IMG/VR virus record: IMGVR_UViG_3300009183_000153
Coordinates: 1-42,377 of that record
Direction: 5' to 3' (one strand)
DNA: 42,377 nt
From: a virus
Position numbers and translations under genes: made by a program. Of the stretch, positions 4,776 to 34,893 are shown piece by piece. How positions within the stretch are numbered: the stretch's first letter is position 1; each line of letters opens with the position of its first letter. The notes beneath the pieces were generated by a model, which saw only the letters and a program-made list of their open reading frames with translations, was not told the origin of the DNA and ran no database searches.

Positions 4776-4801
4776 ACAGTTTTTTGTGGTAAAAAAACCA
4801 C

Positions 4802-4831: not shown

Positions 4832-4877
4832 GGGGGATTATAGATAATATTATCGATTATCTATTATCATATACTTG

Positions 4878-17530: not shown

Positions 17531-17797
17531 ATGATTAAAACCATCCTTACAATTACCCACACTGCACCATTTCCACAGCCACAAATGGATAATATTATGA
17601 ACCAATGCGCTACCTGGCAAACCGAAGGAAAATACACCGGAGAACTTGACATCACACACAATACTGTTACAGGAGTTAGACGTGTTGAACGCTGGGCCTG
17701 GGTCGATAACGCTACTGCAGAAGCCTATAAAAATTTAGTACTGGCTAGTTGGATCGATCTATACCCAGATATCAACGTTGACATTGTGGTTGAGTAA
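17531..17797 (+). CDS. Small protein, copy A of a tandem duplicate
   Basis: An 88-aa protein (MIKTILTITHTAPF...) with predicted alternating beta strands and helices. The segment GRWAWVDNATAEAYKNLVL in its general form (here ERWAWVDNATAEAYKNLVL) is shared exactly with copy B from WAWVDN onward. CGGAGA precedes the ATG. No family is recognised; the compact alpha-beta pattern resembles a small dimeric barrel, but that is only an impression. Confidence 0.75.
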   Translation: MIKTILTITHTAPFPQPQMDNIMNQCATWQTEGKYTGELDITHNTVTGVRRVERWAWVDNATAEAYKNLVLASWIDLYPDINVDIVVE

Positions 17798-17823: not shown

Positions 17824-18093
17824 ATGATTAAAACCATCCTTACACTTACCCAAACTACACCGTTTCACTTACAGCCACAGCATGATAATATTATGAATCA
17901 ATGCGCTGCCTGGCAAGCTGAAGGAAAATACACCGGAGAACTTGAGTTTACAAACAATCCTAGCACAGGGGTTAGGTGTGTCAACCGCTGGGCCTGGGTC
18001 GATAACGCTACTGCAGAAGCCTATAAAAATTTAGTACTATCTTGTTGGATCGATCTATACCCAGATGTCAACGTTGACATTGTGGTTGAGTAA
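17824..18093 (+). CDS. Small protein, copy B of a tandem duplicate
   Basis: An 89-aa protein about four-fifths identical to copy A over its whole length, with the same start MIKTILT and end NVDIVVE; differences cluster in the N-terminal 50 residues. The copied unit includes the 3' flank GAGTAACATTACTTAAA. Its ribosome site is weaker than that of copy A. No function is known. Confidence 0.75.
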   Translation: MIKTILTLTQTTPFHLQPQHDNIMNQCAAWQAEGKYTGELEFTNNPSTGVRCVNRWAWVDNATAEAYKNLVLSCWIDLYPDVNVDIVVE

Positions 18094-19961: not shown

Positions 19962-20871
19962 GTTTTCTCCGTGTGTCAAGTGTCACGCAATGAAACCCAC
20001 CACCTAATGTACGGCTGTGGCTTAGCGTATGAGGTATAGCATCAATGCCTTTTGACTTTAATACAGTAATTAGTGCTGTTTGTGCGGCATCTACAATAAC
20101 TGTTCGGGGATCCAGCACCAACATATTCATGGCAATCCATTTGGATGCATACGGATATTGATAAAAGCCCTGTGGCACTACATCGTCGATGTAGATTTTT
20201 TCCCAGGAATCAAACGCTGCCGGACAATTTGATTCAGTTACACGACTGGCATTCAACAATACCAATCCTTCCCGCACAGGCACAATGGTACTGTCAATGT
20301 GTACTCCGGAATAAAAGTTACACAGCTCAATGTCAATCGCAGGGAATTGATTGCACAGCCAATCATATGCGGCCAAATTACCACTGTGACTTTGTAGGTA
20401 TAACCAGGTGCCACCTAGTCTGCATACATTGGCAGCATCTAAAATCATGCCTTGATCCCGGGGCATTGTTAACACTGTGTTAGCTTGTTGAATAATTTGT
20501 TGTAGGCCTTCGGTTTCTTGATTCCGGCAAGGATACATCATGTTTACATCAACCACAGTGTCGCCTGCTACTAACAATCTATCACGTGGACAATAGTTGT
20601 ACATTCCACCTAACTCAACAAAGTCCATCGGTTTGGGTCTGTACACTACTGCGCCGTAGTCAGCTAATATCTCTGACAGGCGATCAAGTTCCGCGTTGGC
20701 TTCTTCAACAATCCAGTTGGGTACAGGACCAGTTGGCACAGGTGTTTCGGTCCAGGATGTTTTAGACGATTCTATAGCAAATACCGGATCATTGCTGGGC
20801 CAATTGGCGTTGGTTGCACTGCCAACTACTATGGCTTCCAGTGGATCCCATTCGTTACGGCTGTCTATCAT
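19954..20871 (-). CDS. Amidinotransferase (glycine/inosamine amidinotransferase-like)
   Basis: A 305-aa protein. Asp145 (LDAANVCR), His191 (SGVHIDSTIVP) and Cys295 (GGGFHCVTLD) match the catalytic triad of L-arginine amidinotransferases. The His-to-Cys spacing of 104 equals that recalled for human AGAT. The enzyme would move an amidino group from arginine to an amine acceptor. The acceptor is unknown; amino sugars or amino-acid side products are possible. It is the third gene of the operon, joined by ATGA to the hydroxylase-like gene. Confidence 0.85.
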   Translation of the reverse strand: MIDSRNEWDPLEAIVVGSATNANWPSNDPVFAIESSKTSWTETPVPTGPVPNWIVEEANAELDRLSEILADYGAVVYRPKPMDFVELGGMYNYCPRDRLLVAGDTVVDVNMMYPCRNQETEGLQQIIQQANTVLTMPRDQGMILDAANVCRLGGTWLYLQSHSGNLAAYDWLCNQFPAIDIELCNFYSGVHIDSTIVPVREGLVLLNASRVTESNCPAAFDSWEKIYIDDVVPQGFYQYPYASKWIAMNMLVLDPRTVIVDAAQTALITVLKSKGIDAIPHTLSHSRTLGGGFHCVTLDTRRKHD

Positions 20872-21383
20872 AGGTGCCCTGTAATTTGCAATGTGTACCG
20901 ATCTTCAAGTCCAATGTTGGCTGCCATGTGCGGTGCATCATACACCCATTCTGATGTTTGTCCTGCTTTCCAATTGACATAAGGAACACCATCTACTTCA
21001 AGGTAGTGTCCGGGTTTCCAATCTTCTAACAACACCAATGCTCGACGTATTGATCGTTCTCGACCTTGCAAATTAAACAGTTCGATATAACGCTTGTACA
21101 GATCTCTATGCACCGGCATAACTGTGCCGGTGGGCATGCGATAAAACGCTAGGCCAATGTCTTGCCAGCCTTGTGCCCGGTACATATCTATAAACTTTGG
21201 TGCCCAGTCCGGAAGTCTGTGTCGCATGTCACATAGTTCGCCACAAATTTTACTTTGATATCCTTGACTTTGCCATAGTTCTAAACTTGCAGGATCGTTA
21301 AAAGGCTCTTGAATGTAATCCAAGTTTTTAAACTCTTCATCCCAGAATTTATATAATTGGTATTTCCGTGGATTGTATATCAT
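20868..21383 (-). CDS. Aspartyl/asparaginyl beta-hydroxylase-like protein
   Basis: A 171-aa protein. His92-x-Asp94 (MPVHRDL), a distal His152 (DAPHMAANIG) and Arg162 (DRYTLQITG) fit the Fe(II)/2-oxoglutarate site of Asp/Asn hydroxylase-type enzymes. The preceding RRALVLLEDWKPGHYLEVDG forms the expected strands. It overlaps both neighbours by 4 nt (ATGA), so the three enzymes are made together. The substrate is unknown. Confidence 0.75.
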   Translation of the reverse strand: MIYNPRKYQLYKFWDEEFKNLDYIQEPFNDPASLELWQSQGYQSKICGELCDMRHRLPDWAPKFIDMYRAQGWQDIGLAFYRMPTGTVMPVHRDLYKRYIELFNLQGRERSIRRALVLLEDWKPGHYLEVDGVPYVNWKAGQTSEWVYDAPHMAANIGLEDRYTLQITGHL

Positions 21384-22624
21384 TTTTTGTTTCGTGTGTT
21401 TCCGTAGTGTATTACTTCAAGGTTGGCTGTTGGTGACAGCATTGAGCGCCAAGGATCAACAACAACACTGCCTTTAGGTATGTCGCAATAGAATCCATCC
21501 TTGACTGTGTTTCCGGTGTAGCCGTATGTCACCTGGCGGTTGTGTGCCAGCAACAGCACACAAGGACCAATCAACTCTGACACTACTTCTGTTGGATCAT
21601 CTGCTAGAGGATCAACATATCTAACATTAAATCCAAATTCTTTTACAAAATGTCCAATCAGAGTTGAGTACGATCCAATACAGTACGCAACATCTGGCTT
21701 GTAGGCTTTGCCATGAATTACAATGCTCATGCCGCGTTCTTTTGCGGTGTCTACTAAAAACTTAGCAAGATTTTTTGCTTGTATTTCGCGAGCATACATG
21801 ATAGTATCAAACATGTCATAGCCAAGATCATATTCTTCGGCTAACCAACGCAGGGCAATGTTGTCTCTGGGATGACATGCACCTGCATCCCCCATACCTG
21901 CTGTCATGTATTTGGGACCCATAATACGCATGGTTGAACGAGCCAATGCATTGGTTACCACATCCACATTGATGTTGCCAATTTTTAGTGCAAAGTCTTG
22001 AATCATGTTTGCAAGACCGATCTTGGCCGAAATGAATGTGTTGTAGAAGATCTTGATTGCTTCGCATTCATCCCAGGTGCCAATTTCGTAGCGTGGGTTG
22101 TTTTGCATAACTTGATTGTAAATTTCTACCAACTCTCCAGCCAGTGCATTTGGATTGCCATCTTCTGTACCAATCATAATCATTTCTGGGTTGACCATGT
22201 CCCATTTAACTGATCCCATGGCAATCAAATATGGGTTATATAAAAATTGATGTTTTGCATCTAACAATGGTACAAAGTATTTGCGAGTGGTACCGGGCAA
22301 CACTGTGGAAATCAGCACAACTTTCTTAGGTGATGTAGCATACTGGTTGATGTTTGTAATGGCTTCTTTGACTGCGTCATGTCCAAAATCTTTGGGAGTC
22401 AAATGACTTGACGGAGTGCTTCCGTCATACCCCTCAGCATGAGGAGTAGGAACAGCAATAAAAATCCACTCACTTTTGTTTATGGTTTCTTCAATACTGC
22501 AAACTCGTACCAGGTCACTGGTTCTTGGGCTTGTGTCGTAGCCCCGGACTGTGAACTTTTCAGCCAGTACTTCTGCACATTCCAGACCTAATTTTCCAAT
22601 GCCAATGAAGCCTATATTTTTCAT
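21380..22624 (-). CDS. UDP-glucose/GDP-mannose dehydrogenase family protein
   Basis: A 414-aa protein. The Rossmann motif GIGKLG (8-13), Lys191/Asn195 (KIFYN) and catalytic Cys250 (GACHPRDN) of the nucleotide-sugar 6-dehydrogenase family are present. GKAYKPD marks the C-terminal NAD-linked domain. It should oxidise a nucleotide-sugar twice to a uronate. It heads a translationally coupled operon with the hydroxylase-like protein, amidinotransferase and fibre-like protein. Confidence 0.88.
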   Translation of the reverse strand: MKNIGFIGIGKLGLECAEVLAEKFTVRGYDTSPRTSDLVRVCSIEETINKSEWIFIAVPTPHAEGYDGSTPSSHLTPKDFGHDAVKEAITNINQYATSPKKVVLISTVLPGTTRKYFVPLLDAKHQFLYNPYLIAMGSVKWDMVNPEMIMIGTEDGNPNALAGELVEIYNQVMQNNPRYEIGTWDECEAIKIFYNTFISAKIGLANMIQDFALKIGNINVDVVTNALARSTMRIMGPKYMTAGMGDAGACHPRDNIALRWLAEEYDLGYDMFDTIMYAREIQAKNLAKFLVDTAKERGMSIVIHGKAYKPDVAYCIGSYSTLIGHFVKEFGFNVRYVDPLADDPTEVVSELIGPCVLLLAHNRQVTYGYTGNTVKDGFYCDIPKGSVVVDPWRSMLSPTANLEVIHYGNTRNKK

Positions 22625-22659
22625 ATTATGAGTATTCTTTCGGATAGATTGTATTACTG

Positions 22660-22710
22660 TGTTCTATTTGTAGAACAATTTTATTGATTGTGTATTAATT
22701 TATCGGTTTA
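22660..22710 (-). promoter_or_regulatory. Intergenic control region upstream of the dehydrogenase operon
   Basis: It contains a perfect inverted repeat TGTTCTA-TTTG-TAGAACA (22660-22677) and, on the minus strand, CGATAAATTAATAC (22692-22705), a possible late-type element. The gap 22625-22810 holds no gene. Confidence 0.35.
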
Positions 22711-22770
22711 CAGTACCATGCCCAAAAAAAGTAAACGGATCTATGCCCACTGAATTTTATTGCTCTAACG

Positions 22771-22780
22771 CAATAAATAT
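22771..22780 (+). promoter_or_regulatory. Possible late-type promoter (CAATAAATAT)
   Basis: The ATAAATA core lies about 30 nt before the ATG of the Asn-rich secreted protein; AAAGGTGA is the ribosome site. Confidence 0.4.
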
Positions 22781-22810
22781 CAAGATAATAATAACTATAA
22801 AGGTGATAGC

Positions 22811-23932
22811 ATGAAACAGAGACTATTCAGGGGCGTAGCCTGGCTTGTTTTAGTAGTATCAGCAACGGCAACAGCACAAACAACCACTACGTCTGGCACA
22901 ACCGGTGGAACGACCACAGGCACAAGCACACTGATCAATCAAGGTACCTACGACTCTAAGAGCCTGGTTGACACTAATAGTACCAGCAATAGTACCAGCA
23001 CCGTTACTTCCAACAGCAATACTACTAGTAATAGCAACAGCACTAGCACAGCCGCGGTCAACAGTACCAGTAACAATACCAATGCTAACACCAGTGTCAA
23101 TACCAATAACAATATTAACTCTGGCACAAGTACCATTAACAACAACAACGTTAATTCAGGTTCAATGACCTACAACAATAACAATGTCAACTCAGGCACA
23201 ATGACTTATAACAACAACAATGTCAACGCCAGTACTGCTACCAATGTAAACACCAACAATAATATTAATAGTGGCACAATGACCTACAACAACAACAATG
23301 TCAGCACAGCCACCAACAATAACAACAACGTTAACACCAGCACAGCCACCAACAACAACGTTAATACTGGTGATATGACCAATCGTAATATCAACACGTC
23401 GACCAGCACCAGCAACAATGTTAACAATAACGTTAATCAAAGTACAGCAGTTAATCAAAACATGCAGACTGGTGATATGACCAATCGTAATATTAACACC
23501 AGTGAGATTACACAACGAATCATTCAACCTCCGCCAACTGCGGTTGCTCCTGCTATGCTGAGTGGTGGCAATGCTGACTTATGTTCAACTGGCAGTTCGG
23601 GATCTGTGCAGACACAAGTGTTTGGCGTAAGTTCAGGTGGAACAGTACGTGACATGAATTGCGAACGCTTGAAGTTAAGTAAAACTCTATATGACATGGG
23701 CATGAAGGTAGCGGCAGTTGCTACCATGTGTCAAGACCGTCGTGTGTTTGATGCCATGTTGGCAGCTGGCACACCTTGCCCATACGAAGGCAAGATTGGT
23801 GAACAAGCAAAAGCAAGTTGGGAAGCAAATCCAGACCGGATTCCAAAGATTGACGAGGCAAAACTAGATGACACTTATAAGAAAGTTGGCATTGGCGCTA
23901 TCCTTGGCGTTCTTGTCCACAAGTTATTCTAA
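22811..23932 (+). CDS. Secreted Asn/Thr/Ser-rich repeat protein
   Basis: A 373-aa protein with a signal peptide (MKQRLFRGVAWLVLVVSATATA). Residues about 25-235 are low complexity, with a 12-residue unit NNNNVNSGTMTY repeated near 105-160 and a second unit TGDMTNRNINTS (twice). The C-terminal ~130 residues form a Cys-containing domain (ADLCSTG, DMNCERLKLS, TMCQDRRVF, GTPCPYEG) shared in style with small envelope proteins. The 3' end overlaps the next gene by 65 nt. Possibly a surface or fibrous protein; function is unknown. Confidence 0.75.
   Translation: MKQRLFRGVAWLVLVVSATATAQTTTTSGTTGGTTTGTSTLINQGTYDSKSLVDTNSTSNSTSTVTSNSNTTSNSNSTSTAAVNSTSNNTNANTSVNTNNNINSGTSTINNNNVNSGSMTYNNNNVNSGTMTYNNNNVNASTATNVNTNNNINSGTMTYNNNNVSTATNNNNNVNTSTATNNNVNTGDMTNRNINTSTSTSNNVNNNVNQSTAVNQNMQTGDMTNRNINTSEITQRIIQPPPTAVAPAMLSGGNADLCSTGSSGSVQTQVFGVSSGGTVRDMNCERLKLSKTLYDMGMKVAAVATMCQDRRVFDAMLAAGTPCPYEGKIGEQAKASWEANPDRIPKIDEAKLDDTYKKVGIGAILGVLVHKLF
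23120..23380 (+). repeat. 36-bp protein-coding repeats (Asn-rich)
   Basis: Imperfect copies of a 36-nt unit containing AACAACAACAATGTCAA, encoding NNNNVNSGTMTY. The repeats alternate with (A/S)TATNNNNNVNT-type blocks and probably vary in number. Confidence 0.75.
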
Positions 23933-26099
23933 CGCACAGGATTACGTCAGCGGTAATTTAATTACCAATCCAGGATTTACCAATGGCTCCACTGGATGGA
24001 CTACAACTGGAAACGGCACCGCTGGAATGTTTGGCGCTGGCGGCAGTGACGGGTATCAATTTAGTTGGCAAGCTGGCACAGTATCACAATCAATTGCAGT
24101 CAATCAAGCCTTGACTGGCACCGGTATTATTGTTAGTGGACTACAATATGGATGGCGATATGCCAACTGGTGTAAGAACAAAATAGGCGGGGAACAATCT
24201 TGCTTTGATTCAAATGGCATAGTTGACCAATTAAGTGCCAATGTTAGTTTAACTAACTCTGCTGGTACTAATGTATATTCTCAGAATTTTAATTATAACA
24301 CATGGGTATATGCATGGCAACAAGAAAATCAAAATGTTAACTTTGCAACACCGTACTCACTTACCGGACTTAACAAATTAAACATTTCATTCTCAGGTGT
24401 TGACTCAGGGGGCTGGGCTGGTTTGTATGGACCAGTGGTTACCGATGTGTATGCTAAATTAAAGTACTCAATTGATCCTTGTGCTAACAATCCTGCTTAT
24501 AGTTCAACTTGTGCTGGCTTTGGTAACATTATTAACACTAATAATTTATTAGATTCAACCAAGGGAGGTTCAAGTCTAAATCAAGCATTTGCAATTAATA
24601 CCGCACTGGAAAGTGCTGGCGTTGGTGCAAGGATACACGGATTTAATTACGGGTTTAACTGGAGAGTTGGACAAAGTTGGTACGGATGTACTGCTACCAA
24701 CCAAGACGGATCGTGTTCGTGGTATATGAACGTACCTGCGTATGCTAATGCATCTTTTTCGTTGACTAACAGTAGTAACCAATCTATACATTCAAAGAGT
24801 TATAGTTTCACAGGTGACGGTACCAGTGGATCAGTAAGTGAAAAGTACTTGTTGCCATCAAGCATGAATCAATCATTGTTAGGCACAGGTAGAATTGTAG
24901 GGTCAGCATCTGGCACCGGTTCGTCTATAGAAGGTGCCTGGGCAACAATGATTTACACAGCTGACCCTTGTCTAGCTAATCCTTTATACAGCCCTGATTG
25001 TAAAGGATACGCATTAGCTATAGCCAAACAATTGGCGCCAGCAAGCACACCAACTACAGATGGTACACAGATCACAACAATGGATCCAACTACGGGAATG
25101 TCAGTGAATGATCCCGCACAGCCAGCGCCTCCTCCTGGTAGCCCTCCCCCACCACCAGGCAGTCCACCTCCTCCAGGTTCAGAACCTCCTCCTGGTAGCC
25201 CTCCCCCGCCTCAAGGTGCACCACCTCCGGCTTCTAGCAATACAAATAGCACACCAGCAAATCAACCTCCTCCACAGGGTGGTAGTAGTCAACCTCGAGC
25301 AGGTGAAGTTAAAACAGCCAGCGATAGCAACAGCAAGTCAGCGCCAAGTCTAGGCAGTGTTATGAGCATGATTAGTAGCAATCAAGCTAGAATAGGCAAC
25401 GAAGCAAAGTCTGTTGTACAGGCCGCAGAAACAGCCGCTGCCAAAGATGCGCAACAAGCACAACAACAAGCAGAGAATGTGGCCGGCGCACTTACTGCTC
25501 AAAGCATTGCTGGTAGCATGACACAGGCCAGCACAGGCACAGGATTAGTGGTATCTAGCAGTCAATCACAAATGTCCATGGTAAATGTAGCCAGCGTAGC
25601 ATCGACCACTGTGGTCACAATTGGTGGTCTACGCCCAGTAACATCAAGTGTATTTGCTGATCCCAATATGTCTTTGTCATCAAGCATGATGCCGGGTCAG
25701 TTTGATATGTACAGTTTGCAATCAGCGCCAGGGCGCAACAACACACAACCGGAACTAGAAACACCACAGATTGAAGGTATCAAAATTGGCGGCCGTTCTG
25801 TACTAAATGATGCCATGGAACAACGTTCTGTGTTACCAAGTGCTGGCACACAAGAACAGCGCACAGACTCAGTAAACAAAAATGTGCAGTCAAATGAACT
25901 GGCCGGCGGAGTTGATTTGACCAGAATGGCCACACAGCCGGCAGGTTATCAATCATATTCAACAGCCATGCCGGATGTGGCATTTTATGCACCAAGAGAA
26001 ATATACCGGAATCAAGTCAATGTTGACAATGCAAGATTGTTACGCGGACTGGGTAGCGATAGACTTCACCAACAGTTGATAGACTTGCAGTACAAATAA
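23868..26099 (+). CDS. Large secreted protein with two related beta domains and Pro-rich linker
   Basis: A 743-aa protein. The signal peptide (MTLIRKLALALSLAFLSTSYSNA) is encoded entirely inside the 3' end of the upstream gene. Residues about 28-210 and 215-380 form two similar Trp/Gly/Asn-rich beta domains, each with a closing SxDPCxxNPxYSxxC motif. A PPPGSPPPPPGSPPP-type linker (about 415-465) follows, then an Ala/Gln-rich helix (about 500-550) and a Ser/Met-rich C-terminus. It is probably cell-surface or virion-associated. No function is recognised. Confidence 0.75.
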   Translation: MTLIRKLALALSLAFLSTSYSNAQDYVSGNLITNPGFTNGSTGWTTTGNGTAGMFGAGGSDGYQFSWQAGTVSQSIAVNQALTGTGIIVSGLQYGWRYANWCKNKIGGEQSCFDSNGIVDQLSANVSLTNSAGTNVYSQNFNYNTWVYAWQQENQNVNFATPYSLTGLNKLNISFSGVDSGGWAGLYGPVVTDVYAKLKYSIDPCANNPAYSSTCAGFGNIINTNNLLDSTKGGSSLNQAFAINTALESAGVGARIHGFNYGFNWRVGQSWYGCTATNQDGSCSWYMNVPAYANASFSLTNSSNQSIHSKSYSFTGDGTSGSVSEKYLLPSSMNQSLLGTGRIVGSASGTGSSIEGAWATMIYTADPCLANPLYSPDCKGYALAIAKQLAPASTPTTDGTQITTMDPTTGMSVNDPAQPAPPPGSPPPPPGSPPPPGSEPPPGSPPPPQGAPPPASSNTNSTPANQPPPQGGSSQPRAGEVKTASDSNSKSAPSLGSVMSMISSNQARIGNEAKSVVQAAETAAAKDAQQAQQQAENVAGALTAQSIAGSMTQASTGTGLVVSSSQSQMSMVNVASVASTTVVTIGGLRPVTSSVFADPNMSLSSSMMPGQFDMYSLQSAPGRNNTQPELETPQIEGIKIGGRSVLNDAMEQRSVLPSAGTQEQRTDSVNKNVQSNELAGGVDLTRMATQPAGYQSYSTAMPDVAFYAPREIYRNQVNVDNARLLRGLGSDRLHQQLIDLQYK

Positions 26100-26109
26100 G
26101 GAGAACAAC

Positions 26110-26271
26110 ATGGAATACATTGTTTATGTAATTATAGGGATTGGTCTAGGATTATCAACATCCAGCATCATAACAAAAAATAGTACACGAGTGCAGAATG
26201 CCCGAGACAATCTAGAAGCCAAAAAAGAATGGATAAGAATGGTATCCACAAGAATAAAAATAGGAGCTTAA
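26110..26271 (+). CDS. 53-aa single-span membrane protein
   Basis: A 53-codon ORF with AAGGAG 7 nt before the ATG. One N-terminal membrane helix (MEYIVYVIIGIGLGLSTSS) is followed by a basic tail. It lies between the large secreted protein (10 nt upstream) and the coiled-coil gene (2 nt downstream), in the same transcript. Function is unknown; it is too small for secure assignment. Confidence 0.6.
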   Translation: MEYIVYVIIGIGLGLSTSSIITKNSTRVQNARDNLEAKKEWIRMVSTRIKIGA

Positions 26272-26273
26272 AA

Positions 26274-26861
26274 ATGACTGAAGAAATTAAAAGCGTTGAT
26301 GCCAAGGTTGACGAACTTGAGGCGGCTGCAAAGAAGTATGCCTCAAAAGATACTGTGATCTCAATTGGTGGTTATGAGTTCACACCTGCCAAACTCATGG
26401 TAGCCGCCACTATTGTCAGCAGTATATTAGGCGGACTGTATGGCACGTTTGAAGTGTACAAGGACTACGTAGGCATGAAGAAAAAGATTGCTGAATATGC
26501 CGCACCAGACCTAAGTGGCTTTGACAAACGCCTAGCAGTCATAGAAGAAAACTCAGCCAAGACCTCGGACTACACTCGTGATATCAAAACAGACTTGAAG
26601 AATGATCTACGTCGTAACGAATCAGTAACTGAGCAGGTAGAACGCAGTGTTAAAACAGCACAGCGTGAAACTGAAGCAGAAATGCGTGACATGCGCAAGG
26701 CAGTGCGTGAGGACTTAGAAAAGGCACGTAACGAAGCCAGTGTTATTCGTAGAGAAATGGCCGATGCACGTAGAGAAATTGAACGTGAAGTTGTACAGTT
26801 AAAGAAAGAAGTTGATAGCAAAATACAAAAGGCCATTGATAATCCATTGGCCAACAAGTGA
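26274..26861 (+). CDS. Membrane-anchored coiled-coil protein
   Basis: A 195-aa protein. A polar N-terminus is followed by one membrane helix (about residues 40-62, KLMVAATIVSSILGGLYG) and then a long heptad-rich helix to the end (ERSVKTAQRETEAEMRDMRK ...). Start 26274 follows TAGGAGC; the longer frame to 26229 overlaps the 53-aa gene. A decayed copy of its 3' end lies at 27501-27546. Function is unknown; the architecture resembles spanin-type or virion-tethering proteins, but without clear homology. Confidence 0.75.
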   Translation: MTEEIKSVDAKVDELEAAAKKYASKDTVISIGGYEFTPAKLMVAATIVSSILGGLYGTFEVYKDYVGMKKKIAEYAAPDLSGFDKRLAVIEENSAKTSDYTRDIKTDLKNDLRRNESVTEQVERSVKTAQRETEAEMRDMRKAVREDLEKARNEASVIRREMADARREIEREVVQLKKEVDSKIQKAIDNPLANK

Positions 26862-26862
26862 T

Positions 26863-27015
26863 ATGATCGGCGCGACCATGTTATCCTTGTACATTTTAGC
26901 CCAAGAGCCTAGATGTGTAAGATGGACCTGGTCAGGAGATGTTTATAACCGAGTAGTTGTATGTTTAGAATGGTCCAAGCCTCCTCCTAAAGACAAGGAG
27001 CCCAAGAAAAAATAA
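26863..27015 (+). CDS. 50-aa secreted protein, PRCxxWTW family
   Basis: A short signal-like N-terminus (MIGATMLSLYILAQ) precedes EPRCVRWTW...RVVVCLEW and a Pro/Lys tail (PPPKDKEPKKK). The core matches the gene at 4243-4383 in PRC-x2-WTW and VCLxW. It starts 2 nt after the coiled-coil gene and ends as TAATG with the next. Both neighbours are membrane proteins, so an envelope site is likely. Function is unknown. Confidence 0.65.
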   Translation: MIGATMLSLYILAQEPRCVRWTWSGDVYNRVVVCLEWSKPPPKDKEPKKK

Positions 27016-27497
27016 TGGATCCTATCACCCTTGGTCTGGCATTTACAGCCGCTCAACAATCAGTTGGTTATATTAAAAAAGCCATTGCCCTGGGTAAAGA
27101 TATTAACAGTCTTTACGGACAGTTTGCCAAGTTCTTTGAAAATAGTGATACCATCCATGAAGCAAACATAAAAGCACAAACCAGCAAAAATATTCTCACT
27201 GACGGACAGATCAGGGCAATGTCAATTCAAATTGCCATGCAGAGTAAGGCTCTACGTGATGCTGAAAAAGAATTGAAAGAAATGTTAATATGGTCAGGCA
27301 ACAAAGACGTCTGGGATGAGATGATGGCTGAGCGTGTGCGTATGTACAAAGAACGTGCCAAACTACAAGCAGACATTAAAAATGCTAAAATTCAAGCACA
27401 GGCCGACATGATAGACAGAGTACTTATAGGCATAAGTTTCATGGCAATATCTGTCCCTGTTGTGCTTTTCAGTTTTGCTATGATAGTTCGATCTTAA
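27015..27497 (+). CDS. Unknown phage protein with C-terminal membrane helix
   Basis: A 160-aa, mostly helical protein (MDPITLGLAFTAAQQSVGYI...) with a C-terminal membrane helix (VLIGISFMAISVPVVLFSFA). It is translationally coupled (TAATG) to the 50-aa secreted protein and is the last intact gene of the 22.8-27.5 kb transcript. No motif is recognised; tail-anchored topology could suit a lysis, superinfection or virion role, but none is established. Confidence 0.7.
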   Translation: MDPITLGLAFTAAQQSVGYIKKAIALGKDINSLYGQFAKFFENSDTIHEANIKAQTSKNILTDGQIRAMSIQIAMQSKALRDAEKELKEMLIWSGNKDVWDEMMAERVRMYKERAKLQADIKNAKIQAQADMIDRVLIGISFMAISVPVVLFSFAMIVRS

Positions 27498-27500
27498 AGA

Positions 27501-27560
27501 AAAGAAGTTGATATCAACATACAAAAGACCATTACCAATACATTTGTAAAACTAATTAGT
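27501..27560 (+). pseudogene. Decayed copy of the coiled-coil gene's 3' end
   Basis: 27501-27546 aligns with 26805-26850 at 38 of 46 bases without gaps; the reading frame gives KEVDINIQKTI against KEVDSKIQKAI. It lies after the stop of the 160-aa gene with no start. It is probably a duplication remnant. It includes the palindrome GTTGATATCAAC (27507-27518). Confidence 0.7.
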
Positions 27561-28706
27561 AGGGTCAAATGTTAAATTATAGTTGTTGCCTCTGACACCG
27601 TCAATCATGTTGGTATATCGGCGAAATTTAGCATTTAATTCAGAATCATATTGGTAGTCTTTGATTACATTAAGCGCATATGATTTAACATCAGGGTCAA
27701 CCGTCAAAGACTGCTCAATTTGATCCTTAAACCGGGCCATGTCCGCAGGTGGTACAGAATTTATTCTCATGTAATCCTCGCCGCCATGAAGAGAAAAGTG
27801 TATATTAAAATTTTGATCGTGACACCAATCTATTAACGCAGGAAGAGAATAAATGCTGGTATGTTGGAATGTATGGTTAACGATCAAATGAGTTTGTCCT
27901 GGTATTAGATTTCTTACTCGGTCTATGTTCTTTTCAATCACAGTAAAATCGCTTCCGTACCGTATGTAATCGTTGTGTTGGTCCGTGCCTTCGAGACTGA
28001 TTGCAAAATTCACTGATTTGAATTGTTTTATCAGTTCTAACACAGTGTTATCAATCATGGTCATGTTTGTTACAAATAACAAATCTACGTTTTTTGGTTC
28101 GGTAACTTGATTCAGCATGTTGGCCAGTCCCGGAACCATAAACGGCTCGCCACCGGAGAAATGTAAAAATCTGACTGTTGGTAAAATTCTACCACAGAAC
28201 TCAGTAAAGTCGTTGCTTTCCCACCACTTGTGCTCTCCAGTTGGAGGATCCCAATAAATATTAGCAGAGTTGTAACTTGGTTTGTTTTTTATATATTCTG
28301 TCCAGATACTTGAACTTGAGTAAGGACTACACATTATACATCGAAGATTACAAAAATTTCCCAATTTAAATTCCACATGCCATGGTGAGGTATGCCGATT
28401 AAAAAATGCTCGATTTTTTTTGGTATTCTTTTTATCAGCATCTTGATGACGGGTATTAGACATTGTTCGCAAACTGCGGTATCCAATATTTTCATCATGC
28501 CAGCACTGGTGACACCTAGGATCTTCTATGCCTGCATCAAGATCGTTGGATAGCTTGTCCATTTCTATTCGCCACTGTGAGTATTCATGGAATGTATAAA
28601 ATTTGTGCTCATCTTGAGGTAATTCGTGAAACTGACAACATGGCCTCAAAGTACCATTTGTTTCTACACTTATACCATGTCTGGCAAGTACACATGATTT
28701 TGTCAT
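27552..28706 (-). CDS. Radical SAM enzyme 3 with N-terminal twitch-type Cys cluster
   Basis: A 384-aa protein. Core motif Cys119-x3-Cys123-x2-Cys126 (CNLRCIMC), GGEPFM strand. N-terminal Cys5, the Cys23-Cys24 pair and Cys65-x2-Cys68 (CHQCWHDE) give the same pre-barrel cluster layout as radical SAM 2. It follows an unknown 120-aa gene by 3 nt and is probably co-translated with it. The substrate is unknown. The sequence is as close to SPASM/twitch peptide-modifying enzymes as can be judged by eye. Confidence 0.85.
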   Translation of the reverse strand: MTKSCVLARHGISVETNGTLRPCCQFHELPQDEHKFYTFHEYSQWRIEMDKLSNDLDAGIEDPRCHQCWHDENIGYRSLRTMSNTRHQDADKKNTKKNRAFFNRHTSPWHVEFKLGNFCNLRCIMCSPYSSSSIWTEYIKNKPSYNSANIYWDPPTGEHKWWESNDFTEFCGRILPTVRFLHFSGGEPFMVPGLANMLNQVTEPKNVDLLFVTNMTMIDNTVLELIKQFKSVNFAISLEGTDQHNDYIRYGSDFTVIEKNIDRVRNLIPGQTHLIVNHTFQHTSIYSLPALIDWCHDQNFNIHFSLHGGEDYMRINSVPPADMARFKDQIEQSLTVDPDVKSYALNVIKDYQYDSELNAKFRRYTNMIDGVRGNNYNLTFDPTN

Positions 28707-29713: not shown

Positions 29714-30488
29714 TCTCATAAGTGACCTGCACCTAGGTCCCACAGACACATTTGATTGGACCGGAATAGCCACCAGCCCATTCTGTGTCGTAGCCGGCGA
29801 TATTTCCATGGATGTTGAAATAGTGCGAGACACATTAGAACATCTTGGTCAATGCTATCAAGCAGTGTTTTATATCGACGGCAACAACGAACATAGATAC
29901 AGTTTAGACTCACTTAGTGATAGTTATAACATACTACAAGAAGCTGTTGCTGGAATAGAAAATGTAGTATTTCTACAAGACAACTGTGTGATTGTTAACA
30001 ATGTTGCATTTGTTGGCACCAACGGCTGGTGGACATATGATCTAGATTCCAGCATTGATGATGAACAGTGTAGATTATGGTATTGCGATGTCATGGATGT
30101 CAGCATGCCTGTTACCAGTGCTATACACAGCATGGCATACAACGATGTTGCTTACTTGAGAAACAGTATTAAAAAACTTCAAACACATCCTGATGTTACA
30201 TCAATTGTTCTTGTCACACACACTGTGCCAAACATAGATTTAATAAATTATGACATGGAGATTACGTCAACTTATAAGTTTAATGTAATGGGAAATTCTC
30301 TTATGCAGATGGCACTGGATGGCGATACAGAAAACAAAGTTAAAACTTGGTGCTTTGGACACTATCATAATGCCATTGACCAGCATCAGCACGGCATTAG
30401 ATACGTGAACAACTGCCGGGGCAGAGTTGAAGATTCATCTACCTGGACTCCGACTTATCACCCCAAGCGCATTGTGGTTGATTGTTAA
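29697..30488 (+). CDS. Calcineurin-like metallophosphoesterase
   Basis: A 263-aa protein with metal motifs SDLHLG (Asp10, His12), VAGDIS, DGNNEHR, VLVTHTVP and CFGHYHNA. GTG start with AAGGAG 9 nt upstream, inside the homing endonuclease 3' end. It is unrelated in detail to the LpxH-like enzyme at 14.6 kb. The phosphodiester or phosphomonoester substrate is unknown. The stop shares GTTAAC with the convergent ClpS stop. Confidence 0.82.
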   Translation: MTLTFDLISDLHLGPTDTFDWTGIATSPFCVVAGDISMDVEIVRDTLEHLGQCYQAVFYIDGNNEHRYSLDSLSDSYNILQEAVAGIENVVFLQDNCVIVNNVAFVGTNGWWTYDLDSSIDDEQCRLWYCDVMDVSMPVTSAIHSMAYNDVAYLRNSIKKLQTHPDVTSIVLVTHTVPNIDLINYDMEITSTYKFNVMGNSLMQMALDGDTENKVKTWCFGHYHNAIDQHQHGIRYVNNCRGRVEDSSTWTPTYHPKRIVVDC

Positions 30489-30790
30489 CGTGAGGTTTCG
30501 GGTTCTAATTTAATTTGCAAAGGATAATCGTTACTACGTGCATCCAGTGTAACTTCAATGCCTTTTTGTTCGGCAATTTCATAAGGCAAGATTGCAACAA
30601 TTGCAGATCCGGCATTGTGAATATCTTCTGTAATTGTCACAGCAGTTTCTGCGGTGTACTCAAAATGTCGTATCAAACTTTCAACTACAAAATCCACAGA
30701 TGTTTTGTTATCGTTCAAGTAGATAATTTTGAATAATGGCGGCTCACGAAATTCTACTTTTGATTTTGGTATTGTATTTGTATCTGCCAT
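30485..30790 (-). CDS. clpS: ClpS-like N-degron adaptor
   Basis: A 101-aa protein. Asn26-Asp27 (YLNDN), His58 (IHNAG) and the C-terminal PLQIKLEP match the N-degron pocket and fold of ClpS (E. coli Asn34/Asp35/His66). ClpS normally delivers N-end-rule substrates to ClpA; no ClpA is encoded here, so it either redirects the host ClpAP or works with a different unfoldase. ATG 30790 is preceded by AAAGGAT. A strong hairpin precedes it. Confidence 0.88.
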   Translation of the reverse strand: MADTNTIPKSKVEFREPPLFKIIYLNDNKTSVDFVVESLIRHFEYTAETAVTITEDIHNAGSAIVAILPYEIAEQKGIEVTLDARSNDYPLQIKLEPETSR

Positions 30791-30808
30791 TTTATATCCT
30801 TTTGTAGT

Positions 30809-30831
30809 GTGGGGGCATGACATGCCCCCAC
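30809..30831 (-). other. Strong intergenic hairpin between hsp20 and clpS
   Basis: GTGGGGGCATG and CATGCCCCCAC are perfect 11-bp arms around one base, folding as an 8-bp G/C stem. The minus strand has no U-run after it, so it is more likely a processing or stability element, or a partial attenuator, than a terminator. Confidence 0.6.
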
Positions 30832-30849
30832 TGTATTTACACTATTATA

Positions 30850-31305
30850 TTAGACTGTGTAGGTGATTGCAATGGTCTTTGGCCGAGCTTCTTCTGGAAC
30901 TTCACGTTTTAGATGAATGCTTAAAATGCCAAGTTCAAGATGTGCATTGGTAATTTCCACATGGTCCGCCAGTTGGAATTCTCTACGGAAACTACGCTCA
31001 CTGATTCCTTTGTGCAAATAGTTCACAGACTCTTCGTCCATTAACTCGCCTATATTTTGTTTGCCTTCGATAACTAGAATTTTTTTGTCCTTGGTCACTG
31101 CCAAGTTGTCTAGACTAAATCCGGCCACAGCTATACTGATCTTATACTCGTCATCGCTGACTTGTACAATGTTATAGGGCGGGTAATTGGTGTTGCCTTG
31201 TTGAGCACTCACACGCATAAGATCATCAAACATGTTATCAAAACCGATACCAAATTTGTGCAGTGCGGGAATGTCGAAAGAGCGAAGGGTGAGAGTTTTT
31301 GTCAT
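30850..31305 (-). CDS. Small heat shock protein (Hsp20/IbpA-like)
   Basis: A 151-aa alpha-crystallin-domain protein: PPYNIVQVSDDEYKISIAVA, GFSLDNLAVT, a middle RSFRREFQLADHVEI, and the closing GILSIHLKREVPE, with a short tail PKTIAITYTV (I-x-I type). It holds unfolded proteins during infection or heat. AAGGAG lies 7 nt before the ATG, inside a predicted ROSE-like hairpin. It lies between groES and clpS, all on the minus strand. Confidence 0.9.
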   Translation of the reverse strand: MTKTLTLRSFDIPALHKFGIGFDNMFDDLMRVSAQQGNTNYPPYNIVQVSDDEYKISIAVAGFSLDNLAVTKDKKILVIEGKQNIGELMDEESVNYLHKGISERSFRREFQLADHVEITNAHLELGILSIHLKREVPEEARPKTIAITYTV

Positions 31306-31334
31306 TTGTTTTCTCCTTTATTAAGCAAGATGAC
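31301..31334 (-). promoter_or_regulatory. ROSE-like RNA thermometer hairpin in the hsp20 leader
   Basis: In the minus-strand mRNA, CUUGCUU pairs with the Shine-Dalgarno AAGGAG through an AAUA loop, leaving one bulged G, the UYGCU hallmark of ROSE elements. The flanking GUCAU (31334-31330) pairs with AUGAC (31305-31301), the start codon region. A second hairpin (GTAG...CTAC, about 31341-31362) lies upstream. Melting on warming would free both sites. Confidence 0.7.
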
Positions 31335-31366
31335 TTATAATGTAGCCCCACTATGGGCACTACAAT

Positions 31367-31376
31367 ATTATTTATC
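31367..31376 (-). promoter_or_regulatory. Possible late-type promoter of hsp20 (GATAAATAAT)
   Basis: Minus strand, about 62 nt before the hsp20 ATG, upstream of the two leader hairpins. Confidence 0.35.
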
Positions 31377-31383
31377 ACAGATT

Positions 31384-31680
31384 TTATACAGTTTGTTTTA
31401 TAATTGCCATGATGTCGGTTTCGTACACAAAGTTAAATTCTTTGTTGTCAACTTTGACTTTTTGCACAGCAGTTTTGCTGAACAACACACGATCGCCGAC
31501 CTTAACCACCATCGGCACTAGTTCGCCATCTTCGGCAATACGACCTGTGCCCACAGCAAGTACATCGCCCTGGCTGGGTTTTTCTGCGGCTGCATCTGGG
31601 ATAATTAGACCACTGGCAGTTGTAGTTTCTGCTTCAATCAACTGCACAACGATGCGGTCACGAATAGGGATTAATTTCAT
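31384..31680 (-). CDS. groES: GroES-like co-chaperonin
   Basis: A 98-aa protein, the length of bacterial GroES (T4 gp31 is longer). MKLIPIRDRIVVQLI, the mobile loop EAETTTASGLIIPD whose hydrophobic tip binds GroEL, VGDRVLFSKTA, and the C-terminal ETDIMAII are all present. It should cap the host GroEL, for example for folding of the capsid protein. AAGGAAA precedes the ATG. It has its own strong promoter at 31702-31730. Confidence 0.93.
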   Translation of the reverse strand: MKLIPIRDRIVVQLIEAETTTASGLIIPDAAAEKPSQGDVLAVGTGRIAEDGELVPMVVKVGDRVLFSKTAVQKVKVDNKEFNFVYETDIMAIIKQTV

Positions 31681-31701
31681 AGTGTTTCCTTATAATAATG
31701 A

Positions 31702-31730
31702 ATTATAACACATGCTGAGTGCTGTGTCAA
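31702..31730 (-). promoter_or_regulatory. Consensus sigma70 promoter for groES
   Basis: Minus strand: TTGACA (31730-31725), 17 bp, TATAAT (31707-31702), with TGT before the -10. Full consensus hexamers. Confidence 0.9.
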
Positions 31731-31738
31731 CTGATCTG

Positions 31739-32938
31739 TTACGAATTTTGTTGTTCTAATCGGATAGGAGTAGTAACTTGTGTTTTATCAATGGCAATTT
31801 TTAAAATATTGCGAGACTGATAATCTTTTAAGTTGTACATATGGGGCAAGAGTACACGTTCGAGTTCTGTGTGTAATCCACGAGCACCAGTTTTTGTGGT
31901 GATTGTGCGTTCTGCAATTAGGTCTATACTGTCGGCATCAAAGTCCAGGGCCACACCATCCTGGTTAAACAACCATCTGTACTGACTGACCAAGTTGTTT
32001 TTTACTTCTGTCAAAATAGTAATAAGTTGAGATTTAGTTAGTTCTTCCAACTGTATAATAGATGGGAACCGTCCCACAAACTCTGGAATCATTCCATAAC
32101 GTACTAAATCGTCGGGTGTGATTGCTTCGGATACATTTTCTTTGACAGTGCTGGCGCCAAACCCAATCGACGTGCCTTGTGTACGTGCTTTGATCACTTT
32201 GTCTAGTCCAACAAATGCACCACCTACAATAAACAGTATGTTGGCAGTGTCAATGTCAATTGTTTCACTGCTGGATGTTTTGCGCACTCCTTGATTTGGC
32301 ACTTTACATCGTGTGCCTTCGATCAGTTTAAGCAGTGCTTGTTGAACACCTTCGCCACTCACATCACGTGATACAGTACTACTTTCACCTTTGCGAGCAA
32401 TCTTATCTACTTCGTCTAGGAACACAATTCCACGTTGTGTGCGTTCAACATCGTTGCCGCTGGCATGGAATAGTCTAGCAATTAAACTGTCAACATCGTC
32501 ACCTACATATCCTGCTTCTGTCAGTGTTGTGGCGTCTGCAATAACAAACGGCACATCCAAGTACCGGGCCACTGTGCGAGCCATAAGTGTTTTACCTGTG
32601 CCGGTTGGCCCAGTCATTAAGATGTTGGCTTTTTGTATTTCGTTTTGGGGATCTGGATTACCAATTCGTTTGTAGTGATTGGTAATTGCTACACTTAACA
32701 CAATCTTGGCACCGGACTGTCCAATCACATATTGATCCAGGTACTGGTGTATCTCACGTGGGTCTAGTACAGACTGTACAGTAGATTTTACAGCATGTTC
32801 TTTTGACAGCAACAGCCCGTGACAGAATTCCACACACTCGTTGCATATACCAACATTGTGTCCTACAATCAGTTTGCCCACTTGGTCTTTGTGCTTGTTA
32901 CAAAAATTACAATGTGTAGGTGTTGTTTTAGAGATCAT
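31739..32938 (-). CDS. clpX: ClpX-like AAA+ unfoldase
   Basis: A 399-aa protein. Zinc finger Cys10/Cys13/Cys32/Cys35, Walker A GPTGTGKT (110-117), pore loop GYVGDD (143-148), Walker B IVFLDE (171-176), SGEGVQQALLK and the sensor region PEFVGRFP. The IGF loop (258-260), needed to dock on ClpP, is present. With ClpP1 it could form a complete phage ClpXP. The start lies 2 nt after the stop of the 511-aa membrane gene, so it is likely co-transcribed with the upstream genes. Confidence 0.95.
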   Translation of the reverse strand: MISKTTPTHCNFCNKHKDQVGKLIVGHNVGICNECVEFCHGLLLSKEHAVKSTVQSVLDPREIHQYLDQYVIGQSGAKIVLSVAITNHYKRIGNPDPQNEIQKANILMTGPTGTGKTLMARTVARYLDVPFVIADATTLTEAGYVGDDVDSLIARLFHASGNDVERTQRGIVFLDEVDKIARKGESSTVSRDVSGEGVQQALLKLIEGTRCKVPNQGVRKTSSSETIDIDTANILFIVGGAFVGLDKVIKARTQGTSIGFGASTVKENVSEAITPDDLVRYGMIPEFVGRFPSIIQLEELTKSQLITILTEVKNNLVSQYRWLFNQDGVALDFDADSIDLIAERTITTKTGARGLHTELERVLLPHMYNLKDYQSRNILKIAIDKTQVTTPIRLEQQNS

Positions 32939-32939
32939 G

Positions 32940-34475
32940 TTATTGTCCAGTCAAGCGGCGTTTGATTTGTTCTTGTTCTGCTTCACTCAACAGGTCCGGA
33001 TCATATTCACCTGAATCAATTTTCACAATCAAGTGATCAATGTAGGCTTCATTGTAAGCATAGCGATTGTTTAATTGCTTGTCTACCTCTATCCAATTAT
33101 TTCCATTGTACTTGTACAGTACACTTGGCAACCGATCAACACGCAAGAAAGTGTCACCTTTCATTGGAGCCGACGGAAATACTGTTCCAAATCCAGTGGA
33201 GTTTTCTTTTGCAGGTGCGTTGTCAGGTGTTAGTTCCAGATATGCAGGATCCATCCAAGGTAGGTTATCAATTGCACCGAGTTCGTATAAACGTCGTTGT
33301 GCCTTTAAGGTGCGGGTCGGGTGGTCTTCTTTCCACCGACGTGCGGCTGCTTTGGTTTCAGCATCCATTTCGTCCAGGTGATCATCTTCTGTATCGGGTG
33401 TTTCAATATTGTCGGCAACGACATCCTTTTTGATTGTTTCTGTTTCATCAATCCTGTCAGTAGGAACTTCTGCCACGGGTAAATCTTCGTCTGCGTCATG
33501 TTGCTCTCCGTTTGTGTTACAATCTTTGTTGGGACAAAATAGTCCAATGCCAGGTGCATCTACCAGAGTAGTATCACATCGGGCACAGTTAATAGTGGTG
33601 TCTTCTGGAAACAAGGTGCTGACAACAACTGGGTTTCCTGCAGGCAAATCTTCTACTAGATCTCGTAGCTGTTCTACTTGTTCATCAGTCAATGGACCGT
33701 CGTCTGCTTTGTATTTTTTTTCTCTGTGCCACCTTAGACTCTCACTGGCAGCCAACAGCATCATGATGGCCAATGGGTCAAACACTGTGACCAATATTAT
33801 AATCACCCAGCGTACTGCTTTTTCTAATAGATTAGAGTCAGGATTGTCACCATAGATAAGTGCGGCTATGTATTTGATCGGCCCAACTTCGGCTTCTACT
33901 TTGCGTACTTCGACCGCAATCGGCGCACGTTGTTCATTGAGAACTGTGATTTTCTTTTGAGCTTCTGCAATGTCTGTAAGGAGGCGAGCACGTTCTTTCT
34001 GCTGGGCTCTGCGTATGGCAACTGCTTTGTCCGCCCCTTTTTCATCTGCACTGCGACCCATAACTTGGTCCACAGCCTCATCCATCTGTTTGAGTGCTCG
34101 GCGATTAGCATCTATGTTTTCCCGTTCAATTTTGATCTTTTCGTCATACAAAGCAATTTTGGCTTGTACGTCGCCGGACACCATGCTTTGATCAGAATGT
34201 GCTTTGGAAAGAAATCCAAAGATACCCATGGAAGTGATAACCATCAGCATAAACACCGCTGGTACCAGATAAGCCTTCATTAACCAACGGCATTGGCGCC
34301 AGTGTTCATGTAGCCACAGCGTGACCACTACTTTGGCCAGTTCTAGGATGCCACCCATGATTATGATTGGCACCACAGCGGCGGCAAATATGGCCGCAAG
34401 GCCTGCAATTGAATACCAGGCCGCAATGACCGACAGGCTCAGTGCCACTGCCAACGTAATTAAACTTAGAAACAT
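32940..34475 (-). CDS. Large membrane and coiled-coil protein with zinc ribbon
   Basis: About 511 aa from the ATG at 34475. Hydrophobic helices lie at about residues 3-22, 25-45, 67-87 and 220-242, with a charged coiled coil between the third and fourth. A CxxC...CPNKDC zinc ribbon (CARCDTTLV and FCPNKDC) follows, then an acidic linker and a C-terminal domain with TFLRVDRLPSVLYKYNGNNW. The alternative start at 34541 overlaps the upstream gene. A minus-strand GATAAATA motif ends 7 nt before this ATG with no ribosome site. It probably acts at the inner membrane; function is unknown. Confidence 0.7.
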   Translation of the reverse strand: MFLSLITLAVALSLSVIAAWYSIAGLAAIFAAAVVPIIIMGGILELAKVVVTLWLHEHWRQCRWLMKAYLVPAVFMLMVITSMGIFGFLSKAHSDQSMVSGDVQAKIALYDEKIKIERENIDANRRALKQMDEAVDQVMGRSADEKGADKAVAIRRAQQKERARLLTDIAEAQKKITVLNEQRAPIAVEVRKVEAEVGPIKYIAALIYGDNPDSNLLEKAVRWVIIILVTVFDPLAIMMLLAASESLRWHREKKYKADDGPLTDEQVEQLRDLVEDLPAGNPVVVSTLFPEDTTINCARCDTTLVDAPGIGLFCPNKDCNTNGEQHDADEDLPVAEVPTDRIDETETIKKDVVADNIETPDTEDDHLDEMDAETKAAARRWKEDHPTRTLKAQRRLYELGAIDNLPWMDPAYLELTPDNAPAKENSTGFGTVFPSAPMKGDTFLRVDRLPSVLYKYNGNNWIEVDKQLNNRYAYNEAYIDHLIVKIDSGEYDPDLLSEAEQEQIKRRLTGQ

Positions 34476-34480
34476 AGTGT

Positions 34481-34490
34481 AATATTTATC
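34481..34490 (-). promoter_or_regulatory. Possible late-type promoter, leaderless spacing
   Basis: Minus strand GATAAATATT, then ACACT and the ATG at 34475; a late transcript would start close to the start codon. Confidence 0.4.
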
Positions 34491-34494
34491 TGTT

Positions 34495-34893
34495 TTAGTC
34501 CCATGTTCGATGCACTTCGGCGATCCATTCTCTGCCGTCATATTCGTCTATTTGCCAGTCTACTGAGGCAGGTACCTCTACAATTTTTAACTCGGCAAAA
34601 TTACCATTGGCTCGGTCACCCAGCTCACGCACCACTGACACCAGCACTGGATCATCACGCGGAATATCACTGCTGTACCAGATCTTTCCATTGACCAGAA
34701 TTAGCGGCCCGTATCGTTCAGTATCAAAACGGCTTTCTCGATCTTGTGTTGTGTAGTCAGTCAATGATTGTTTAAGATATAAAAACTCAGCTTCTTGACT
34801 TAGCCCATATCCACCATGGCATGTGTTAATGACCACATACCGAACGCCTTTAAGATAGCGTATGAGTTTTTCTTGTTCGGTTTCTTGTATCAT
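34495..34893 (-). CDS. Unknown phage protein (VINTCHGGYGLS family)
   Basis: A 132-aa protein. The N-terminal YVVINTCHGGYGLSQEAEFL is a segment I associate with a small family of uncharacterised phage and virus proteins; DRESRFDTERYGPLILV and the acidic C-terminal VDWQIDEYDGREWIAEVHRT follow. It is coupled to the GNAT-like gene by ATGA. Function is unknown. Confidence 0.7.
   Translation of the reverse strand: MIQETEQEKLIRYLKGVRYVVINTCHGGYGLSQEAEFLYLKQSLTDYTTQDRESRFDTERYGPLILVNGKIWYSSDIPRDDPVLVSVVRELGDRANGNFAELKIVEVPASVDWQIDEYDGREWIAEVHRTWD

Follow-up and report, generated by a model that had tools for sequence, protein, structure and literature searches.

A ClpAPS/ClpXP system of the phage's own, assisted by an IbpA-like protein, DnaJ and GroES, that would clear or remodel proteins during infection, is the reading we favor for six genes (clpX, clpS, groES, hsp20 and two clpP genes) in IMG/VR record IMGVR_UViG_3300009183_000153. 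From sequence comparison we assign this reading a probability of about 0.62. The stretch analyzed, hereafter the window, is the whole viral record of 42,377 bp. What was observed directly is that the genes are present, that their catalytic and docking motifs are intact, that they evolve under purifying selection and that their order is conserved; the reading builds on these points.

All six genes lie on the minus strand where the first-pass annotation of the window had placed them, and each scored above its curated Pfam cut-off (Table 1). ClpX passed the NCBIfam ClpX equivalog model (509.6 bits, cut-off 359) and tested positive for the C4 zinc finger, Walker A and B motifs, GYVG pore loop, IGF loop and arginine finger. 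The zinc finger, Walker motifs and IGF loop had been described as kept, and this was borne out by cysteines C10, C13, C32 and C35, Walker A K116, Walker B D175 and E176, and an IGF loop at 258, along with pore residue Y144. Across 116 distinct ClpX rows, the Walker A lysine, the Walker B D/E and the GF of the IGF loop were present in 116 of 116, and the zinc-finger cysteines in 115-116. In the RKH loop, which we take to be the ssrA-tag loop, the window reads RKT, with histidine in 77 of the 116 rows. Hsp20 has an alpha-crystallin domain and a C-terminal I-x-I motif; it is called only IbpA-like here because its best NCBIfam match, IbpA, scored 125 bits, under the equivalog cut-off of 212. GroES has a Cpn10 domain and a predicted GroEL-binding mobile loop. 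All six genes are intact and under purifying selection: dN/dS (the ratio of nonsynonymous to synonymous substitution rates, by NG86) against up to five relatives ranged from 0.020 to 0.201 wherever an estimate was possible (25 of 30 comparisons), with one relative lacking GroES, four comparisons yielding no dS, and several dS values being near saturation.

The window is a fragment of a huge-phage genome of about 347 kb or more, and genes missing from it therefore mean little. It differs from the end of a 346,856-bp contig (IMGVR_UViG_3300027759_000045, hereafter G001) by 2 mismatches over 34,378 compared bases, a comparison that leaves out the middle of the window (19847-27845). Bacterial contamination was considered and rejected, given comparable blocks in viral contigs and in phage genomes having a T4-type prohead protease (15/23 records). 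Among bacterial relatives of ClpX, of which the best 80 were kept, the top one matched a contig of a Parcubacteria metagenome-assembled genome at 51%; neither ClpS nor Hsp20 was found near ClpX in 12 loci inspected of those 80, and these relatives yield no host assignment for the phage.

The two ClpP proteins belong to different classes. The Ser-His-Asp triad is intact in ClpP1, as had been proposed, in ClpP2, whose active site the first-pass annotation left undescribed, and in each of the 73 phage ClpPs that were aligned to the E. coli protein, a set that includes duplicates of one phage (e.g., the window and locus L094); decay of these proteases was rejected on this basis. The positions of the ATPase-docking pocket are those we take to apply to E. 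coli ClpP. In the ClpP1 class (50 sequences), the triad reads SHD in 50/50, Y62 is kept in 50/50 and position 82 is F or Y in 50/50. The window ClpP1 retains Y62 and F82 of E. coli but not Y60; because position 60 is not Y, a feature of the whole class, this pocket is not identical to that of E. coli. The ClpP2 class (23 sequences) likewise has SHD in 23/23; in all 23, position 62 is M and position 82 is S or A, while 112 is occupied by T, I or V, 114 by T and 189 by S or G. In the window ClpP2 the changes are Y62M, F82S, F112T, L114T and L189S (E. coli mature numbering), and the protein failed the test for the hydrophobic pocket that, on the positions we presume, docks IGF loops. The ClpP2 triad is invariant across a 19-row alignment with no gaps over the pocket stretches, and a HMMER alignment of ClpP2 to a solved ClpP is ungapped at the pocket positions too. 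The AlphaFold model obtained for ClpP2 was of insufficient quality (mean predicted local distance difference test score 63.2, predicted template modeling score 0.56) and was not used. With its docking pocket altered, ClpP2 was filed as ClpP-like rather than as a canonical ClpXP/ClpAP subunit. We infer from these residues that ClpX and ClpA dock on ClpP1 and that the usual mode of docking is lacking in ClpP2. Three radical SAM proteins are encoded in the 42 kb (5272-6570, 7853-9127 and 27552-28706, minus strand), two of them flanking ClpP1.

For ClpS, the start was moved to 30790 because relatives align from about there, and the ATG at this position, behind a Shine-Dalgarno-like AAAGGA, is the more likely start. 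We take N34, D35 and H66 of E. coli ClpS to form the N-degron pocket and E79 and K84 to contact ClpA. In the 101-aa numbering, the window protein keeps these as N26, D27, H58, E71 and K76, together with the PP junction. In an alignment of 20 phage ClpSs with the E. coli protein, the N34, D35 and E79 positions and the first junction proline were invariant, and H66 and K84 were kept in at least 90%. E. coli ClpS is the top PDB hit (E = 3.6e-12), and matches to the NCBIfam ClpS models stay under the respective cut-offs (best 67.9 vs 149 bits). A proline junction rule after the N-terminal extension of ClpS has been stated (PMC9663308; statements on the literature here and below refer to excerpts of the cited articles).

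The window has no clpA, and the first-pass annotation had proposed that "ClpS without ClpA" redirects degradation of host N-degron proteins. That inference falls, as a fragment artefact, because the near-identical G001 encodes a 765-aa ClpA outside the window. Its sequence has a Clp_N domain, two AAA domains and a D2-small domain, with GDPGVGKT, GPTGTGKT, KYRG and GYVG motifs and an IGFG loop. Family searches covered 50 of 79 ClpX-anchored loci and 20 of 80 ClpS-anchored contigs, chosen by length. The 50 ClpX-anchored contigs contained ClpS in 45, Hsp20 in 44, ClpP in 29, Cpn10 in 15, Clp_N in 13 and GroEL in 7. Of the 19 contigs that had ClpS and were 200 kb or longer, 17 also had ClpA by its Clp_N domain (10/12 ClpX-anchored and 7/7 ClpS-anchored), some counted contigs being near-duplicates (G023 and G026 share the coordinates of ClpS, ClpP and ClpA); both ClpS-negative contigs above 200 kb likewise had no Clp_N match. 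In phage databases, a ClpA-like match was found in at least 15 of 16 ClpS-positive records, counted among 40 of 147 matches, the 16th being a 4.9-kb piece. The 15 comprise 11 of the PA5oct group (two of them PA5oct itself), Phosso, Vibrio phage 2.275.O and two records named "Acinetobacter phage MD-2021a," which may be bacterial contigs, clpS lying directly beside clpA there. The IGF loop was recognized by pattern in 12 of 13 ClpAs (some of them near-duplicates), the 13th not being resolved. Directly upstream of ClpA, an open reading frame (ORF) with the J-domain HPD motif was present in 13/13 fetched loci (e.g., L092:1884-5018); both of the two tested were DnaJ by Pfam, and the ClpA of G001 is likewise preceded by DnaJ.

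The first-pass annotation had considered this combination of six genes unusual. That view was not upheld: two scans of viral contigs, of which the best 80 loci each were used, found at least 585 and at least 597 stretches encoding ClpS relatives, and the phages Atu_ph07 and PA5oct have comparable sets. Nor did the relatives keep the genes singly with decayed active sites, the outcome named as damaging to the proposal; the opposite was seen, with genes together and triads intact, and a complete phage ClpXP stands as possible. Clustering at 85% identity of the ClpSs found in 220 of 233 loci gave 93 clusters, which are not equivalent to independent events. In 89 of 93, Hsp20 is the gene immediately upstream of ClpS; L071 (no Hsp20), L083 and L147 (Hsp20 683 and 724 bases off) and L349 are the exceptions. 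ClpX is upstream of ClpS in 69 of the 80 clusters having at least 6.5 kb, a share raised by loci that were found through ClpX, and in 24 of 81 a ClpP follows downstream at no more than 4.5 kb. Taken alone, the two ClpS-anchored sets had ClpX upstream in 67/68 and, in the more distant set, 45/56, with Hsp20 adjacent in 77/79 and 68/70. The hsp20-clpS pair is the longest-lasting part of the gene order. GroES is clade-specific: it lies between ClpX and Hsp20 in 10 of 50 contigs, and GroEL then follows in six. GroEL stands between GroES and Hsp20 in relatives G015, G003, G004, G006 (loci L088, L089, L090, L091), G005 and G010, while GroES is without GroEL at this site in the window, G001, G002, G007 and G008. 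Only 78 bp separate GroES from Hsp20 in the window, leaving no room for GroEL there, and no GroEL match was found anywhere in G001. A bS21 gene also recurs in this block, with 50 of its 52 occurrences in 73 clusters falling between ClpX and Hsp20 (Pfam confirmed 3/3 tested).

Between hsp20 and clpS lies a leader that is most likely a promoter and 5′ stabilizing hairpin for clpS; a terminator of opposite-strand transcripts is the alternative. In 60 of 69 representative loci (L004, from the same phage as L003, was left out), the Hsp20 stop codon is followed by a perfect stem of at least 7 bp, with 50 distinct arms, against 1.7 expected from single-base shuffles and control values of 6/66 after ClpX and 7/69 after ClpS. 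In a wider set, such stems were found in 70 of 88 clusters (1.9 expected; control 11/88). The hairpin covaries: double changes occurred in all five of its consensus pairs among 32 sequences, chosen for a common motif. A TTGnnn-N16-18-TAnnnT site was present at the gap in 55 of 69 loci, a raw count without a chance control, and a TATAAT...TAARTACA match fell at the gap by coordinates in 12 of 22 records. Terminator-like sites at 30300-34600 numbered 4 (shuffle mean 4.0), and Rfam gave 0 matches on the window at gathering scores. Elsewhere in the window, three perfect hairpins of 9-11 bp stand in a row at 4780-4864, within or next to a single intergenic stretch.

How the proteins may assemble, whether ClpS pairs with ClpA, which substrates they may take and what purpose the system may have are matters of prediction, as follows. 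ClpX, and the ClpA encoded elsewhere in the genome, would dock as unfoldases on ClpP1 through their IGF loops. ClpS would mainly serve phage ClpA, bringing it N-degron or aggregated proteins, and the IbpA-like Hsp20, the DnaJ beside ClpA and GroES acting with host GroEL would hold or fold substrates. ClpP2, a paralogue with an intact triad and probably no usual ATPase docking, may pair with ClpP1. The likely purpose would be to rid the infected cell of aggregated proteins, host proteins or misassembled phage proteins. E. coli ClpS alters the specificity of ClpAP and helps handle aggregates (cited in PMC6102473). Aggregate clearance fits an IbpA-like protein encoded beside ClpS and a DnaJ encoded beside ClpA. 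A bolder version, which we consider conceivable yet on the unlikely side, is a dedicated phage protease for aggregates and N-degrons. Here a fixed hsp20-clpS unit, with clpS having its own promoter and 5′ hairpin, would feed DnaJ-ClpA, while ClpP2 would form asymmetric ClpP1-ClpP2 barrels in which the ClpP1 face alone docks ClpA or ClpX, making up a regulated viral proteasome-like system.

Several observations weigh against a phage-encoded ClpAPS/ClpXP system. The window ClpS does not match the E. coli protein at D36, M40 and M62, and the best NCBIfam match of the G001 ClpA, TIGR02639 ClpA, stands at 781.9 bits, under its cut-off of 993.15. Two long contigs, G027 (251,693 bp) and G022 (220,546 bp), have ClpS and no ClpA match, and may be incomplete; shorter ClpS-anchored contigs had ClpA in 1 of 13, as fragments would give, which is uninformative. 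Aat transferase was found in none of the 50 contigs searched (0/50), and N-degrons would therefore need to be supplied by the host or generated by cleavage. Promoter-like sites at 30300-34600 are not above shuffles (10 vs a mean of 8.8, standard deviation 3.6). Perfect hairpins of at least 8 bp occur elsewhere in the window, 9 of the 12 found being intergenic (simple shuffles of the entire window gave 2-5), and leader hairpins may therefore be general in this phage; TATAAT...TAARTACA is not confined to the gap (G001 has 3 matches), and 6 of 22 records lack an exact match to it. A 533-aa protein (65/73) and a metallophosphoesterase-like protein (61/73; labeled by eye, with no Pfam match above cut-off) are nearly as conserved in the block as ClpX. 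Block descent therefore explains part of the order, neighbors of no known proteostasis role being conserved as well. That the order is entirely block synteny from shared descent, with genes acting singly and no joint system, is nevertheless unlikely in our judgment. The conserved neighbors and the coming and going of GroES and GroEL are in its favor, but Hsp20-ClpS adjacency outlasts ClpX (89/93 vs 69/80, and 45/56 in the more distant set), reaches PA5oct, whose ClpS is 27% identical to that of the window, and is accompanied by a conserved leader element.

Three further explanations concern individual proteins. It has been suggested that phage ClpS brings targets to host ClpAP (PMC7824862), and a ClpS that binds host ClpA and redirects host N-degron degradation would be consistent with the presumed ClpA contacts, which are kept and could also be recognized by host ClpA. 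Long records seldom have ClpS without phage ClpA, however, and we regard hijacking as quite improbable. Service to phage ClpX instead of ClpA would suit the close neighborhood of clpS and clpX, with ClpA encoded far off, yet the N-domain of ClpX is a zinc finger and it has no Clp_N domain; this pairing seems to us highly implausible. A role of ClpP2 (or ClpP1) as a prohead or head-maturation protease, with ClpX as an assembly chaperone, is also very doubtful. Among phage families, both ClpPs match the PHROGs head-maturation family phrog_94 best, and the clpP gene of PA5oct is annotated "ESI-MS/MS." Both window proteins nonetheless fall short of the NCBIfam head-maturation model NF045542 (83.9 and 60.1 vs a cut-off of 120 bits), and a separate T4-type prohead protease (Peptidase_S77) is encoded in G001, PA5oct and Phosso, and in 15 of the 23 records searched overall.

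Much of the Clp and chaperone set is already known in huge phages, where it is real, functional-looking and widespread. The Agrobacterium phage Atu_ph07 has seven Clp proteins, including ClpX, ClpA, ClpS and ClpP-like proteins (PMC6102473, 2018). It resembles the phage studied here in combining these with DnaJ in one jumbo phage, ClpA and DnaJ being numbered adjacently (gp292, gp293). It differs in that ClpS (gp708) and ClpX (gp2) are numbered far apart, ClpB is also present, and no hsp20-clpS unit is described in the excerpts; its ClpS gave no tblastn match at E ≤ 1e-3. The Pseudomonas phage PA5oct (MK797984) is closer in order, with ClpX, bS21, two ORFs, Hsp20 and ClpS followed by a ligase and ClpP, and DnaJ-ClpA elsewhere. 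In contrast to the window, it has bS21 instead of GroES beside ClpX and, within the 25 kb read, one ClpP and no GroES. Its relatives, including Paride (OR805295), also have ClpX, ClpS and ClpA matches. Paride is reported to replicate in deep-dormant P. aeruginosa (PMC10761892), and "clp" occurs 0 times in the excerpts of that article. A study of 900 genomes of bS21-encoding huge phages reported Hsp20 (n = 127) and two Clp protease prokaryotic virus orthologous groups (pVOGs; n = 50, 47) within ten genes of bS21 (PMC9723584, 2022); ClpS, gene order, ClpA and the leader hairpin are not mentioned in the excerpts of that survey. Phage AP-J-162 has GroES, ClpX, Hsp20, DnaJ and six Clp ORFs (PMC11242549), other jumbo phages have been named with ClpP, ClpS, ClpA, ClpX, Hsp20 and Hsp10 (PMC7824862), and ClpA is among the genes present in at least 80% of Moraphage genomes (PMC12619734). 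Among the literature matches listed, a scope that leaves most subscription papers and all preprints outside, we recognized no description of the hsp20-clpS unit, the leader hairpin or the pocket-altered ClpP2.

Compared with E. coli ClpAPS/ClpXP, the phage proteins share IGF-type unfoldase loops, the ClpS pocket residues, the PP junction and the ClpP triad. They differ in that phage ClpS shares 31% identity with its E. coli counterpart, a pocket-altered second ClpP is added, clpS adjoins hsp20 rather than clpA, and no Aat was found in phage contigs. If the set is functional, some viruses bring a whole bacterial pathway of regulated proteolysis, which goes beyond borrowing or inhibiting that of the host, and the retention of a small heat-shock protein, DnaJ, ClpS and ClpA in these phages would be explained. 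It would also provide a natural case of a ClpP paralogue seemingly without ATPase docking yet with a catalytic triad, and the cultured PA5oct group would make virus-run protein clean-up testable.

Table 1. Positions of the Clp and chaperone genes and of associated features in the 42,377-bp window.
Feature	Position	Strand	Description
ClpX, AAA+ unfoldase	31739-32938	minus	399 aa; Pfam zf-C4_ClpX 2.9e-13, AAA_2 1.4e-31
GroES / Cpn10	31384-31680	minus	98 aa; Pfam 1.7e-30; mobile loop ASGLIIPD
Hsp20, IbpA-like small heat-shock protein	30850-31305	minus	151 aa; Pfam 1.9e-15; C-terminal IAI at 145
ClpS adaptor	30485-30790 (longer ORF to 30823)	minus	101 aa; Pfam 3.7e-20
ClpP1	6570-7193	minus	207 aa; Pfam 1.5e-63; triad S99/H124/D185
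ClpP2	10614-11189	minus	191 aa; Pfam 2.5e-29; triad S93/H118/D169
clpS leader	30791-30872	minus	promoter-like site, GTAAATACA, hairpin, Shine-Dalgarno-like site
TTGCAA-N17-TATAAT promoter-like site in clpS leader	30872-30844	minus	pattern match
10-bp hairpin in clpS leader	30831-30809	minus	perfect stem
Sigma-70 consensus match TTGACA-N17-TATAAT with TG, just upstream of groES	31702-31730	minus	12/12; consensus match only
Protein immediately upstream of clpX, with segments judged hydrophobic by eye	32940-34541	minus	533 aa; no Pfam match above cut-off

Two further features of the window lie apart from the Clp and chaperone genes. Tandem duplicated small genes at 17531-17797 and 17824-18093 (plus strand) are about 88% identical in DNA sequence, and a gene for a UvdE-type UV endonuclease is located at 16443-17459 (minus strand).

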